64,000 bases of DNA, taken from Tannerella serpentiformis (GTDB lineage Bacteria > Bacteroidota > Bacteroidia > Bacteroidales > Tannerellaceae). Position 1 is the first letter of the stretch, and each line of letters begins with the position of its first letter. The position numbers and the translations under genes are program-made. The notes below the pieces were generated by a model that was given only the letters and a program-made list of their open reading frames with translations, ran no database searches and had not been told where the DNA came from. This document shows positions 5,992 to 56,313 of the stretch, in pieces. The stretch covers positions 1,426,001-1,490,000 of the forward strand of contig NZ_CP028365.1 of NCBI RefSeq assembly GCF_003033925.1, in the 5' to 3' direction.

Positions 5992-6438
5992 TCATTCATC
6001 GTGATACTTATACCAGACCTCTACGATCTCCTTCTTATACATCTCGGCCAGTTTCAGGGCGCGCTTCACGTCCTTCACCTTCATCCCATGATTGTAAACC
6101 AACTGAGAAGCTGTTTTGAATTTATTGGATGCTTGTTTTATGGAGTTGTTTGGGCGGATCTTTCTCATTTCTATTTCGGGTCTATCGAGGCCTGTTTCTG
6201 CCCTTTTGTTCCATCATTAATCCTCACATAGCTTGCTATGCTCGTCTAATGATGAAACAAAATCATCAGAAACATACTCCCGATAGCCTCCGAAATAAAT
6301 TCAAAATAGCTTCTCAATTTTCGGCTCTATGGCGATTTTGATGTCATCGCCACCCTTTGTCACATGTACATGGATAGGCTTATGATCATCGGCGAAGAAG
6401 AAGAATCGCAGCCCGAAAATCTCGAATATCGTAGGCAT
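5992..6438 (-). pseudogene. DUF4160 gene interrupted by a MITE
   Basis: The N-terminal half starts at 6438 (MPTIFEIFGLRFFFFADD, then HKPIHVHVTKGGDD) and runs into the inserted element, where it stops after 45 codons at 6301. The C-terminal half resumes at 6104 in the same strand (LVYNHGMKVKDVKRALKL, then AEMYKKEIVEVWYKYHDE) and stops at 5992. Joining the halves by removing about 210 bp gives one open frame with the usual DUF4160 length and ending. DUF4160 proteins are small and of unproven function, commonly paired with DUF2442. A TACCTTTG element (6463-6470, complement) is a likely -7 box. Loss of function here may leave the downstream DUF2442 gene without its partner. Confidence 0.75.
6105..6315. 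mobile_element. 211-bp MITE-like inverted-repeat element
   Basis: The ends GAGAAGCTGTTTTGAATTTA (6105 onward) and the complement of 6294-6315 match at 21 of 22 positions. Inner blocks also pair: the segment near 6173-6196 with 6269-6296, and a central CATAGC-TT-GCTATG hairpin. There is no room for a transposase, so this is a foldback or MITE-type element mobilised in trans. A clear target duplication cannot be defined by eye. Confidence 0.75.
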
Positions 6439-6479
6439 ATCATTCTCATTGTTATGGCTTCACAAAGGTAGGATTCCCT

Positions 6480-7500
6480 TCCTATCGACAGGATCACCCT
6501 CAAACGCCCCGCCTCTGCCATTCCCCTAGCCCGTCCGACTCCCAAACAGGCCACGTCTGCCATTCCTCTACCCCGTCTCACCCTCAAACGCCCCGCCTTT
6601 TCCATTCCTCCACCCCGTCCCAGCCTCAAACGCCCCGCCTCTGCCATTCCCCCAGCCCGTCCGACTCCCAAACAGCCCGCCTCCACCATTCCCCCACCCC
6701 GTCCGACTCCCAAACAGCCCGCCTCCACCATTCCCCCACCCCGCTCCGCCCCCAAACAGGCCACGTATCTCATTCCCCCAGCCCGTCGGACTCCCAAACA
6801 GGCCACGTATCCCATTCCCCCGGGCCGTCGGGTAGTTATTTCGCGTGCAAATCGGATTCTTTCGTACTGAAAGCCTATGATGTGCAGTGCATATGTGATT
6901 CTCACGCATTAGAAACCTACTGTATGCGTTGCAGATAGGATTCTTCTACTCTAAAAGCCTATTTCATGCGTCGCATGAGATATATTCCCAGTATAAAAAC
7001 CTAAGAAGTGCAGCGCAGATAGGATCTTTCCGAGTTAAAAGAATCGCTTATGTGGCGCAGATAGAATCTTCCTGAGTCGAAAGCATACCTTATGCAGTGC
7101 ATGAGGTAGGCTTTTAATGTAGGAATATGCCTTATGCGACGCATGAGGTAGGCTTCTACATGAGGAACATACTATCCGCATCGCATAGGAATGGCTTCTA
7201 TAGTAAGAGATAGCGTTATGCAGTGCATAAGGAAGGCTTTCAGTCTAAGAGAAGCCGATTTGCACGCGGAATGACTGCCCGACGGCCCGGGGGAATGCCT
7301 GACGAGCCCCGTTTGGGAGTCAGACGGGCCGGAGGAATGGCAGAGGCGGACTGTTTGGGAGTCGGACGGGGTGAGGGAATGCCTGACGGGATGTGTTTGG
7401 AGGTGATCGAGGGTGGGGGAATGGCGGACGGGGAGCGTTTGGAAGTGATCGAGGGTGGAGGAAGGATGGACGGGGGGCGTTTCGGATGGGCCGAGGGGCG
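6480..7500. repeat. 1-kb palindromic array on a 42-bp lattice
   Basis: This gap between the broken DUF4160 gene and mutS holds no gene. The left arm repeats a CCATTCC landmark at 6518, 6560, 6602, 6644, 6686, 6728, 6770 and 6812. The core repeats GATTCT-like landmarks at 6855, 6897, 6939, 7023 and 7065 and a TAGGCT landmark at 7107 and 7149. The right arm repeats GAATG at 7293, 7335, 7377 and 7419. Nearly all steps are 42 bp or a multiple. The right arm is the inverted copy of the left arm, and CGCGTGCAAATCGG occurs on both sides of the core in opposite orientation. Core units carry dyads such as TCATGCG-T-CGCATGA. Confidence 0.9.
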
Positions 7501-7538
7501 GGGAACGAGAGGCGTGGCAGGGGGCGGGAAGCGCTGAT

Positions 7539-7570
7539 TTTGCGGGGCTTTCTGATTAGCCATACTTTTG
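7539..7570 (+). promoter_or_regulatory. Bacteroidetes-type promoter of mutS
   Basis: TTTG at 7539-7542, a 20-bp spacer and TACTTTTG at 7563-7570 match the -33/-7 pattern of the Bacteroidetes primary sigma factor. The motif ends 30 bp before the mutS start. Confidence 0.65.
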
Positions 7571-7599: not shown

Positions 7600-10209
7600 G
7601 TGGCAAAATCCGTCGAAACCCCCTTGATGAAGCAGTATTTTGGCATTAAGGCCAAGCATCCAGAGGCCATTCTGCTCTTTCGCGTGGGCGACTTCTATGA
7701 AATGTATGGGCAGGACGCTGTCGATGGGGCTGAGACGCTCGGCATTGTGCTGACGAAGCGCTCTAACGGTGCGGCGCAGGATGTGCCAATGGCGGGCTTC
7801 CCTTATCACGCGCTCGATGCCTACCTGCCGAAGCTGGTGAAATCGGGCTGGCGGGTGGCGGTATGCGACCAGCTGGAGGATCCGAAAATGGCCAAGAAAC
7901 TGGTCAAGCGAGGGATCACGGAGCTGGTCACCCCCGGCGTTTCGATGGATGACAATGTGCTGGAACGGAGGGAGAATAACTTTCTGGCTGCGGTGCATTT
8001 TGGGCGGTCCAAATGCGGGGTGGCTTTTCTGGATATTTCGACGGGCGAGTTCCTCACGGCTGAGGGCACGGTGGAGACGGTGGACAAGTGGCTGGCGGAC
8101 TTTGCGCCTAAGGAGGTGCTGGTCTGCCACGGTCTGCGCGACCGCTTCGGATGCACCTTCGGGCCTGTGGGCAGTGTGTTCGAGATGGAGGATTGGGTCT
8201 TCATGCCCGACACGGCTCGCGATCGGCTCCAGCGCCACTTTGAGACGGTTGGGCTGAAAGGCTTCGGCGTCGAGGATCTGGAGGACGGCATCGTGGCCGC
8301 AGGCGCCATCCTCGTTTATTTGGATCGCACGAAGCATACGCAGGTGGGACACATCACGTCGCTCCTGCGCATCGAGGAGGAGGGTTACGTCAGGCTCGAC
8401 AAATTCACCGTCCACAGCCTTGAGCTTGTGCGATCGATGAGCGAAGGCGGCCGCTCCCTTCTGGAAACGATCGACGAGACCACCTCGCCCATGGGCGCAC
8501 GACTGCTGAAGCGCTGGCTGCTCTTCCCACTCCGCGACGAGGCCGAGATCAGTCGCCGACAGGACGCCGTGGCCTTGCTTGCGGACGACGCCTTACTGCG
8601 TGAGGCACTGATCGGGCAGCTGGCCGAAGTGGGCGACGTGGAGCGGATCATTTCTAAGGTGGCCGTGGGGCGGGTATCGCCGCGCGAGGTGGTGCAGCTC
8701 AAGCGTGCCCTGGAAGCCATCGGACGGATACGCACGCGCTCGATGGCGTCGGATAACGCGGTGCTCCGGGCTTGGGGTGAGGCACTCGATCCCTGTTCGG
8801 AGATGAGCGAACGCATCGGACGCGAGTTGGTCAGTGAGCCACCCGTCACGATAGCCAAAGGAGGGCTTATCGCCGAGGGGGTAAACCAGGAGCTTGACGA
8901 GCTGCGCCAGCTGGCCTATTCGGGCAAGGACTACCTGACGAAGGTGCAGCAGCGCGAAAGTGAGCGGACGGGCATTCCGAGCCTCAAGATCGCCTTCAAC
9001 AACGTGTTCGGATACTATATCGAGGTCCGCAATGCGCACAAAGACAAGGTGCCCACGGAGTGGATCCGCAAGCAGACCCTGGTCAATGCCGAGCGATACA
9101 TCACGGAGGAGCTGAAGGAATACGAGGAGAAGATCCTCGGCGCCGAAGAGCGTATCGTGGCCTTGGAGGCGGAGCTGTTCAACCGACTGACGGCCGATCT
9201 GACGCACCTCGTCCGCCCCATCCAGCGTGACGCGCAAATCGTGGCCCAGCTGGACTGCGTCGTCTCCTTCGCCCGCACGGCCTCCAGCCAGCGTTATGTG
9301 CGGCCGGTGGTAGACGACTCCGATGTGATCGACATTCGAGGTGGGCGCCACCCCGTCATCGAGCGACAACTGCCCTCGGACGAGCCTTATGTAGCCAACG
9401 ACGTCTATCTCGATCGTCGTGAACAGCAGATCCTCATTATCACTGGGCCAAACATGGCCGGTAAGTCGGCGCTGCTTCGCCAGACAGCCCTCATCGCCCT
9501 GCTGGCCCAGGTGGGCAGCTTCGTGCCCGCCGAGAGCGCGCGTATCGGTTGGGTGGACAAGATCTTCACGCGTGTCGGAGCGTCGGACAACATCTCCGCA
9601 GGCGAATCCACCTTCATGGTCGAGATGAACGAGGCGGCGAACATCCTCAACAACCTCTCTGCGCGCAGTCTTGTGCTCTTCGATGAGTTAGGACGCGGCA
9701 CGAGCACCTATGACGGCATCTCCATTGCCTGGGCCATCGTCGAGTATATCCATGAGCACCCGACGGCGTCGGCCCGCACGCTCTTTGCCACCCATTACCA
9801 CGAGCTGAACGAGATGGCCCGCAGCTTTCCGCGTATCCGCAACTTCAACGTCTCGGTGCGCGAGTCGGGCAATCGGGTCATCTTCCTCCGCAAGCTCGTA
9901 TCCGGGGGCAGTGAGCACAGCTTCGGTATCCACGTGGCGCGTATGGCGGGCATGCCGCGGAGCATCATCGAGCGGTCGGGCGAGATCCTCGCTCGTCTGG
10001 AGCGAGGCGGGGCGCAAGCCAAGCCCGTAGTGGTCGATGTGCCCAAATCAGCGAAGGGCCAGGCCTATCAGCTGAGCTTTTTCCAGTTAGACGATCCGGT
10101 GCTCAGTCAGGTGCGCGACGAGATCTGCAACCTCGACCTAAACAATCTCACGCCGCTCGAAGCGTTGAATAAGCTGAGTGAGATCAAACGAATTATTCAA
10201 GTCAAATAG
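7600..10209 (+). CDS. mutS: DNA mismatch repair protein MutS
   Basis: MutS recognises mismatches and small loops and recruits MutL. The frame extends upstream to 7393, but that extension encodes only the repeat array. The GTG at 7600 has an AAGGAAG ribosome-binding site and gives 869 residues, the normal length. The mismatch-contacting F-Y-E lies at residues 32-34 (GDFYEMYG). The ATPase domain has Walker A GPNMAGKS at 616-623, a Walker [13 protein letters not shown] and a C-terminal helix-turn-helix near [14 protein letters not shown] TAnnTTTG promoter lies just upstream. The neighbouring 1-kb array lies directly before this promoter. Confidence 0.97.
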
Positions 10210-29225: not shown

Positions 29226-30521
29226 TCATCGATACCCGATCCACTTTACGATCTCCTTCAGGTTCGGTTTCTTGCCATAAAGCAGGATGCCGACGCGGTA
29301 AATGCGGCCCGAGAGCCAGACCACGCCCAGGGCTGTGGCGTAGAGCAGGGCGATGGATAGCAGGGGCTGCCAGAGGGGAATGTCGAACGGCAGGCGCATC
29401 ATCATCACCACGGGCGAGGTCAGCGGGATGAGGGAGCACCAGAAGGCCAGCGGGCCGTCGGGGTTGTCGAGGCTGTAAATGCCGGCGTAGAGGGCGAAGA
29501 TGAGCACCATCATCACGGGCATCATGAACTGCTGAGCGTCCTCGGGGTGATCGATCACGGAGCCAATGGCGGCGAAGAGGGAGGCGTAGAGCAAGTATCC
29601 GCCCACGAAGTAGGCCGCGAAGGAGAGCAGGAGCAACGGCAGGTTGAAGGAGCTGAGCGCCGCCATCCATTCGGCCGTCTGGGCCACGTCGGCGGGCGCT
29701 GCGGCGGTGTCGGTCGGGGTGACTGCGGCGCCGGTGAGGGCTGTGATGGCCCCGACGCCGACCAGGGTCAGCACGCCCCAGAGTAGGAGCTGGGTGAGTC
29801 CGACGAGTCCGATGCCGATGATCTTACCCGCCATCAGGTCGAAGGGCCGCACGGAGGAGACCATCAGCTCGACGATGCGGTTCGTCTTCTCTTCCGACAC
29901 GCCCTGCATGACCATCGACCCGTAGAGGGTGATGAACATGTAGACGGCCAGGGTGAAGACGATGCCGATGATGTAGGCCAGTTGGGTGGAGGAGGTGCTC
30001 TCGGAGCCGTCGTCGTTCAGCTTGACGGTGCGGATCTGGTAATCCACGCGGCTGTCACGGACGATCTGCTCAAGGTTGGGGATGCCATAGGCGGCCATCT
30101 TGTCGTGCTCCATGCGCTGGCGGAGCGTCTCGTTGACTAAGCGCGAGAGGTCGGCGGGGATTTGCTGGCGGGAATAGAGCGTGGCGGCCGAGGAGTCGCG
30201 GAGCAGGTCGTCGGTGACTTCCAACGTGGCGAAGGGGTCGTCGGTCCGCGTGGTGACGAAGCGATAGCCATCGGTGTCGGTGAAGAGCGGTGCGTAGCGT
30301 CCGGTGTGGTCGATGACGGCCACGGTGCGCACGTCATCGGCTCGGAACGAGGCCAGCCAGAGTGGCACGAAGATCATACCGATCATCAGCAGGGGCGTGA
30401 GTAGCGTGAGCAGCAGGAAGGATTTCTTGCGTACGCGGAAGAGGTACTCGCGGCGGATGATCAGGGGGAGGGTAGAGGGTAGAGGATAGAGGGTAGAGGG
30501 TAGAGGGTAGAGGGTAGACAT
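29226..30521 (-). CDS. ABC-2 type exporter permease
   Basis: A 431-residue permease of the NatB/ABC-2 type. A membrane segment near residues 32-55 follows the IIRREYLFRVRKKSF motif typical of these proteins. A large extracytoplasmic domain (about 60-190) comes next, then five to six membrane segments. The stretch GVSEEKTNRIVELMVSSV is a family hallmark. The assigned start at 30521 lies in a heptamer repeat, so the first 18 or so residues (STLYPLPSTLYPLP) are repeat-encoded; the frame stays open further upstream through the array. It works with the ATPase at 31162-32073. The exported substrate is unknown. Confidence 0.85.
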   Translation of the reverse strand: MSTLYPLPSTLYPLPSTLPLIIRREYLFRVRKKSFLLLTLLTPLLMIGMIFVPLWLASFRADDVRTVAVIDHTGRYAPLFTDTDGYRFVTTRTDDPFATLEVTDDLLRDSSAATLYSRQQIPADLSRLVNETLRQRMEHDKMAAYGIPNLEQIVRDSRVDYQIRTVKLNDDGSESTSSTQLAYIIGIVFTLAVYMFITLYGSMVMQGVSEEKTNRIVELMVSSVRPFDLMAGKIIGIGLVGLTQLLLWGVLTLVGVGAITALTGAAVTPTDTAAAPADVAQTAEWMAALSSFNLPLLLLSFAAYFVGGYLLYASLFAAIGSVIDHPEDAQQFMMPVMMVLIFALYAGIYSLDNPDGPLAFWCSLIPLTSPVVMMMRLPFDIPLWQPLLSIALLYATALGVVWLSGRIYRVGILLYGKKPNLKEIVKWIGYR

Positions 30522-30718
30522 ATTGAATAGGGGGTTAGAGGGTAGAGGGTGGAGAGTAGAGGGTAGAGGGTGGAGGGTAGAGGGTAGACATATTGAATAG
30601 GGGGTTAGAGGGTAGAGGGTGGAGAGTAGAGGGTAGAGGGTAGAGGGTGGAGGATAGAGGGTGGAGGATAGAGGGTGGAGGGTAGAGGGTAGAGGGTGGA
30701 GGATAGAGGGTGGAGTCA
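30478..30718. repeat. Heptamer array (GGGTAGA)n, left side
   Basis: Degenerate GGGTAGA/GGGTGGA heptamers run from 30478 to 30718. A 70-bp larger repeat with GACATATTGAATAGG occurs at 30517 and 30587. The array covers the start of the permease gene and the stop region of the four-helix gene. Confidence 0.9.
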
Positions 30719-31114: not shown

Positions 31115-31183
31115 AGGCGCATCTCTCTACCCTCTACCCTCTACTCTCTACCCTCTACCCTCTACCCTCTACCCTCTACAGTC
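31115..31183. repeat. Heptamer array, right side (inverted)
   Basis: About nine CCCTCTA/CTCTCTA heptamers, the complement of the left array. The stop codon and last four codons of the ABC ATPase lie inside it. Confidence 0.88.
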
Positions 31184-55649: not shown

Positions 55650-56230
55650 GGTGGCGGTCCCGTCAAGCGACTTTTTGGCGTCGCTGCGTGCCAGCGGCTC
55701 CGTCATGCGACATTCTGGCGTCGCTGCGTGCCAGCGGCCCCGTCAAGCGACTTTTTGGCGTCGCTTTCGACCCAGCGGCCCCGTCAAGCGAGTTTTTGGT
55801 GTCGCTGCGTGCCAGCGGCCCCGTCAAGCGACTTTTTAGCGTCGCTGCGTGCCAGCGGCCCCGTCAAGCGACTTTTTGGCGTCGCTGCGTGCCAGCGGCC
55901 CCGTCAAGCGACTTTTTGGCGTCGCTGCGTGCCAGCGGCCCCGTCAAGCGACTTTTTGGCGTCGCTGGGAGCCAGCGGCCCCGTCAAGCGACTTTTTGGC
56001 GTCGCTGGGAGCCAGCGGCCCCGTCAAGCGACTTTTTAGCGTCGCTTTCGACCCAGCGGGCCCGTCAAGCGACTTTTTGGCGTCGCTGCGTGCCAGCGGC
56101 TCCGTCATGCGACATTTTGGCGTCGCTGCGTGCCAGCGGCTCCGTCATGCGACATTTTGGCGTCGCTGCGTGCCAGCGGCGTCGCCCGAGCGACTTTTTG
56201 GCGTCGCTTTCGACCCAGCGGGCCTGTCAA
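55650..56230. repeat. 40-41-bp array of about 15 units with GCGAC/GTCGC dyad
   Basis: CGTCAAGCGA or CGTCATGCGA landmarks lie at 55661, 55701, 55741, 55782, 55822 and on to 56143, 40 or 41 bp apart. Each unit has GCGAC-TTTTTGGC-GTCGC. Two variant groups (CAAGCGACTTTTT and CATGCGACATT) alternate, and units with TTTCGACCC are 1 bp longer. All three forward frames are open over long distances. Confidence 0.92.
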
Positions 56231-56313
56231 CTGACTTGCCGGCGGATGAGAAACAGAAATCCCTTAAATCCTGTGGCAGATCATCTCCCCGGGTCATCGT
56301 AGGCAACGATCAA

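Follow-up and report, generated by a model that had tools for sequence, protein, structure and literature searches.

Does a kilobase of periodic, palindromic DNA directly upstream of mutS in Tannerella serpentiformis act on that gene in particular, or does it belong to a wider pattern? The question arises from a 64-kb window of the single-contig, 3.01-Mb genome (NZ_CP028365.1, 1426001-1490000; positions given without a locus name are those of this window), in which an earlier note had described the palindrome and proposed that a cruciform or antisense transcription could influence mutS. The palindrome is real, yet it is one of a large class of arrays, which suggests a genome-wide DNA pattern not described before rather than a switch specific to mutS.

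Periodicity and symmetry of the mutS-upstream kilobase

The mutS gene (7600-10209, plus strand) starts with GTG and codes for 869 aa. Reading the sequence upstream of it, we found a candidate core promoter of the Bacteroidetes type at 7539-7570 (plus strand), consisting of the -33 element TTTG (7539-7542), a 20-nt spacer and the -7 element TACTTTTG (7563-7570). A divergent DUF4160 gene has a candidate -7 element TACCTTTG (6463-6470, minus strand), also read from the sequence, by which no good -33 element was found. This gene, which adjoins a DUF2442 gene, is interrupted by a 219-bp MITE-like insert at 6101-6319 with 26-bp inverted ends, its N-terminal piece being at 6301-6438 (minus strand); the insert has some 28 matches in the genome, full and partial ones counted together. 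The array stops about 10 bp short of the candidate mutS -33 element, in agreement with the earlier placement right before the mutS promoter, and its opposite end abuts TACCTTTG; it would occupy the whole space between the two predicted divergent promoters.

The combined 42-bp periodic array and imperfect palindrome spans approximately 6472-7528, which refines the extent of the one-kilobase palindrome of 42-bp units described before. Repeat families on both sides of the centre are spaced exactly 42 bp apart, and lag-42 identity runs over 6472-6860, 6841-6976, 6982-7208 and 7260-7528. When the region was compared with its own reverse complement, one continuous antidiagonal rather than scattered short matches was obtained: the ungapped antidiagonal i+j=14110, pairing 6628-7033 with 7077-7482, has 282 of 406 positions complementary (69%) and dominates all antidiagonals scored, with lesser diagonals at 21-bp shifts as expected for a 42-bp array. 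Its palindrome score is 145.6, as opposed to at most 18 in 100 shuffles of the bases inside 42-bp blocks, and BLAST aligns 6590-7518 with its own reverse complement at 70%. Thus the array is both periodic and palindromic, as had been stated. The centre lies at 7055 and coincides with a unit dyad axis. Both blocks that had been named as mirrored, CGCGTGCAAATCGG (6842-6855, complement at 7255-7268) and ACTGAAAGCC (6866-6875, complement at 7235-7244), are exact mirrors about this point, and the centre previously put near 7050 was therefore right.

The A+T-richer core (about 6866-7244) contains nine dyad units with the motif TGCRNYGCA and axes at 6887+42k (6887 to 7223). It is bounded by the left junction unit (6838-6879), which marks the boundary of core and arm and contains CGCGTGCAAATCGG and ACTGAAAGCC, and by its reverse complement, the right junction unit (7231-7272), with 79% mirror identity. 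The left GC-rich arm (6472-6844, minus strand; about 8-9 units of 42 bp) has the outward consensus G.ctGTTTGGGaGTcggaCGGGgTGGgGGAATGgcaGAcGcG and related arrays elsewhere in the genome, whereas the inverted right arm (7273-7528, plus strand) has about 5-6 such units, so that the left exceeds the right by about three. The right GC block is 0.69 identical to the left when inverted and 0.37 in the best direct alignment, bearing out the claim that the arms carry the same repeat in opposite orientation. Going outward from 7055 by 42 bp at a time, one meets the same succession in either arm: units 1-4 are richer in A+T, unit 5 is transitional (81% alike in the two arms), and the units beyond are GC-rich. 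Complementarity is lowest in the innermost 40 bp of the palindrome (0.50). Core units of the two arms match best in their ordinal pairing (first of 24 permutations), but the outer units are in scrambled order (rank 93 of 720), as would be expected if an inverted duplication had been followed by turnover of the outer units in each arm separately. Growth outward from the centre was considered and rejected, as mirror identity shows no steady outward fall.

Core and GC units are in phase, with the in-phase identity topping all 42 rotations. When the four palindrome blocks are analysed one by one, the best dyad axis is found each time at base = 20 mod 21, and the centre at 7055 has this phase too; hence the kilobase as a whole forms a single two-fold lattice, in which an axis recurs every 21 bp. 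A search of it for G-quadruplexes (four G3 runs, loops 1-7) gave no match, and an Rfam search gave only sub-threshold chance matches. None of 40 genomes of the genus had DNA matches to the palindrome. In the closest relative compared (G014, which would fit Tannerella forsythia; MutS 75% identical, sample G+C 47.9% against 56.3% in the sampled T. serpentiformis sequence), TATCTTTG lies directly 5' of mutS, no palindrome was found in the upstream sequence, and the mutS promoter stands without any array.

A class of intergenic arrays with 40-43-bp units

Intergenic DNA of bacteria is usually short and lean. In a 464-kb sample of the genome, made up of the 64-kb window and 20 stretches of 20 kb each, TRF detected 130 arrays. 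For 78 of these the period is 40-43 bp or a multiple of it (41, 42, 82, 84, 123, 126, 168, 210 and 378), and they cover 4.9% of the sampled bases; extrapolation to the whole genome gives about 500. With genes called by a simple hexamer caller using simple gene starts, 75 of the 78 are intergenic, and dyad symmetry with z>3 is present in 46 of these 75 but in only 5 of 46 other tandem repeats. The mutS kilobase is thus a member of a large intergenic class with units of about four DNA turns, usually dyad-symmetric. Unit sequences fall into 42 clusters among the 70 arrays compared, and modules of the mutS arm family recur at about 8 loci.

Start codons are a median of 187 bp away from the arrays, and stop codons 120 bp. 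TAnnTTTG occurs in 35 of 58 array-to-start flanks (3.6 expected), as compared to 7 occurrences in 21 kb of arrays with both strands counted, and arrays are found outside promoter-to-start segments. They are enriched in divergent intergenic regions (16/34 vs 26/139 tandem ones, p=0.0013). An estimated several hundred similar promoter-upstream arrays suggest a genome-wide pattern rather than a switch special to mutS. Only 5 such arrays were present in the mutS-bearing loci compared (977 kb, almost entirely from relatives in the Bacteroidota, whose MAG assemblies may collapse arrays), and few in the G014 sample. The Tannerella genome papers searched make no mention of such arrays.

Other repeats were observed in the same survey. 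A larger periodic palindrome of 2.04 kb (L120 15487-17530, G000:C1:2135487-2137530) has arms of 856 bp, ungapped and 79% complementary, a period of 168 = 4x42 and GTAG-tagged hairpins, and is located in a convergent intergenic region. The 40-bp array at 55654-56237 belongs to a family common to L108, L112, L125 and L146 (CCCGTCAAGCGACTTTTTGGCGTCGCTG). Among the 41-bp arrays at L116, L111, L117 and L125, the perfect hairpin differs between arrays and the linker is related, e.g., TTGCAGAAGTTCTGCAA and CTTGCGGAAGTTCCGCAAG. Two heptamer arrays, (GAGGGTA)n at 30468-30715 and (CTCTACC)n at 31125-31179, face each other across about 400 bp.

Some 5% of the sampled sequence is made up of repeat blocks that have no common sequence but agree in two-fold symmetry and in a unit length of four helical turns, and they extend no further than core promoters. 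The choice lies between two testable accounts: a mutational process with an inbuilt ruler of 41-42 nt, or helical phasing by which the cell organises its promoter-upstream DNA.

Conserved dyads and possible origins of the arrays

In the nine core units of the mutS array, 56% of positions are complementary at the axes 6887+42k, as opposed to 26% at slid axes. Searched for this dyad motif, the whole genome showed two more loci, L149 (2.565 Mb) and L150 (2.851 Mb), where it clusters at multiples of 42 bp. At L150 the core lies inside a palindrome of 299 bp per arm (64%); at L149 the mirrored flank pair is farther out (235 bp, 82%), and the core alone is 60% complementary over 234 bp. The 31 core units pooled from the three loci have pairwise identities of about 0.50-0.54, with TGC/GCA and the A/T at +-15 conserved. 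Their conservation profile is uneven and mirror-symmetric, with r=0.90 for all units and 0.84, 0.83 and 0.73 per locus, values that are inflated by the presence of both orientations in the pool; the half-array tests are weaker (r=0.55 for right halves, 0.71 for left halves), and the permutation tests take alignment columns as independent. In other arrays this symmetry of conservation is weak (mean r 0.20). Watson-Crick pair counts in the core units show no excess over the column expectation and so no covariation in support of a hairpin, a sign of a conserved two-fold motif and not of compensating hairpin changes. A selected RNA hairpin was rejected because neither a G-U excess nor covariation above column expectation was observed.

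The spacing is likewise maintained. The TGC-N-GCA of consecutive core units matches at zero offset in every case, and about 590 spanning-tree substitutions over seven unit sets are accompanied by zero net indel; in comparison, a MITE family of this genome has one indel for every 14 substitutions. Since gapped alignment of the arms introduces small compensating gaps, the statement on indels rests on the ungapped register and the unit offsets; substitutions per gap opening number 34 in the arrays and 14 in the MITE family. Pairs of TGCRNYGCA 42 bp apart occur 13 times in the T. serpentiformis genome (0.011 expected) and none 45 bp apart, and two other species of the genus (G016 and G049, one genome per species) have 4 each at 42 bp, with a different unit between the dyads. 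One G049 array mixes TGCAATGCA and CCTAATGTTTAGG dyads about the same middle, indicating that the dyad itself is exchangeable while phase and symmetry stay. In G049, 42-bp arrays at L153 (5135-5579) and L154 (297-650) combine two dyads that are unrelated to each other and have the middle GGAACTTCC in common.

The reading that we tentatively favour, at slightly less than an even chance, is that a tandem array underwent a single inverted duplication and has been kept in phase as a promoter-upstream lattice of dyad sites. A dyad unit would have been amplified in tandem by slippage or unequal exchange, after which a single inverted duplication may have arisen by a template switch at a unit dyad, which would place the global centre exactly on a unit axis; the outer units would then have turned over independently. 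Beyond the observed symmetry, phase, position and partial conservation, we infer a function as a non-transcribed row of phased dyad sites on one helix face, where a putative dimeric DNA-binding or bending protein might package or insulate promoter-upstream DNA, any effect on mutS being equally conjectural. As no motif is common to all arrays, a single protein that recognises a specific sequence could not act on all of them. Also against the lattice, the symmetry of conservation is weak in other arrays, homogenisation between units could purge those of deviating length and thereby keep the phase without selection, and the array is absent from G014, the closest relative compared. In its widest form, which we regard as unlikely, Tannerella would possess a DNA-architecture system of promoter-upstream dyad sites at four-turn (40-43 bp) spacing genome-wide, with spacing and two-fold symmetry selected and sequence free to turn over, much like phased chromatin arrays and read by a putative dimeric, shape-reading protein.

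A neutral minisatellite is the strongest competitor, a serious though on balance somewhat doubtful one. Single-strand hairpins of the dyad units would drive slippage and fold-back copying into tandem, dyad-symmetric, mirror-image arrays, which would persist in slack promoter-upstream DNA because insertions there are harmless. This accounts well for the symmetry and the mirror arms, and is consistent with about 42 clusters that have just unit length and dyad character in common, with the good single-stranded folding of unit dyads (z -6.4 for 7078-7118), with the abundance of arrays in one species and their sparseness in relatives, and with the in vitro elongation of hairpin-forming repeats by DNA polymerases (PMC13061963 and its ref. 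14). Three observations are less well explained and would not be predicted by it: that conservation over three loci is symmetric and position-specific despite 50% divergence, that net indels are absent, and that two other species have this dyad at this 42-bp spacing; nor is there a known reason for units of 40-43 rather than 31 or 52 bp.

It is quite improbable, in our assessment, that the array is a mobile or mosaic element of the MITE, REP/BIME or BrickBuilt type, moved as a whole with modules exchanged between copies. The separate recurrence of the core at 2.565 and 2.851 Mb and of the arm family at about 8 loci would suit such an origin, as would the GTAG-like hairpins and the single Y1 transposase gene of the genome, whereas the arms fade and end at unequal distances from the centre without terminal inverted repeats, no tagged REP hairpin was seen in the mutS palindrome, and these arrays favour divergent sites over the convergent or tandem sites of known REPs (PMC3733652). 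Control of mutS, and hence of the mutation rate, by a cruciform or an antisense transcript is very improbable. The array abuts the mutS promoter and, compared with shuffled sequence, has a much better single-strand fold (DNA z -11.5, 6838-7272; RNA z -24, 6560-7550), as any palindrome would, but its centre pairs worst, its arm mismatches have no G-U bias (22 G-U vs 33 A-C), and no promoter-like site came up in it in a scan for sigma-70 sites, which leaves Bacteroidetes promoters uncovered. The same array type lies 5' of many unrelated genes, outside promoter-to-start segments, and the G014 mutS promoter does without it, so that the special effect on mutS proposed in the earlier note found no support. 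Finally, a coding repeat of 14 codons, whose arms would encode related 14-residue peptides in the open frames present (6360-6905 minus, 7223-7537 plus), can be dismissed as having practically no chance, since there is no Pfam match, the GC arms lack third-position bias (0.25, 0.32, 0.29), and the 40, 41 or 43-bp units of sister arrays could not maintain a reading frame.

Relation to known repeat systems

Bacterial minisatellites and VNTRs such as MIRUs are tandem intergenic repeats of tens of bp. The mutS array resembles them in its tandem units of 10-100 bp, but differs in a unit length fixed across unrelated sequences, in dyad symmetry and in a phase common to all modules. In iteron and operator arrays, direct or dyad sites are a whole number of helical turns apart; the mutS array has neither a replication gene nearby nor a known binding protein, and its core occurs at three loci per genome, while sharing with operator arrays a position-specific conserved dyad at fixed spacing.

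REP/BIME elements are GTAG- or CGTC-tagged hairpins of 20-40 bp, mostly at convergent or tandem sites near 3' ends (PMC3733652). Like them, the Tannerella arrays contain repeated extragenic dyads in tandem and in both orientations; unlike them, the dyads are 42 bp apart and divergent promoter-upstream sites are enriched, the mutS locus itself being divergent. The units of the mutS palindrome contain no GTAG/CGTC-tagged 20-40-bp hairpin, and GTAGGGGCGTAT hairpins are present elsewhere, as in L120. GTAG-like REP hairpins were also noted in the survey, with GGGGCGTAT occurring 101 times in 464 kb, 42 of them with GTA directly before (about 3.5 expected); a survey of GTAG elements lists no such family for Bacteroidetes (PMC3733652). 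The genome has one RAYT-type Y1 transposase gene (PF01797, G000:C1:1380004-1380351), which does not imply a link to the arrays. As regards MITEs, terminal inverted repeats with target duplication were not found in the unequal, fading mutS array, and what recurs at several sites is modules in differing combinations.

Close counterparts from the same taxonomic order are PgRS/MITE464 and BrickBuilt of Porphyromonas gingivalis, intergenic tandem arrays with 41-nt and 23-nt units, of which BrickBuilt is never within genes and has bidirectional promoter activity (PMC4596501). Those are defined elements of about 10-20 copies each with IS5-like terminal inverted repeats (PMC4596501), whereas the Tannerella arrays, without such ends, number an estimated several hundred in tens of sequence families and are built of dyad units and mirror arms.
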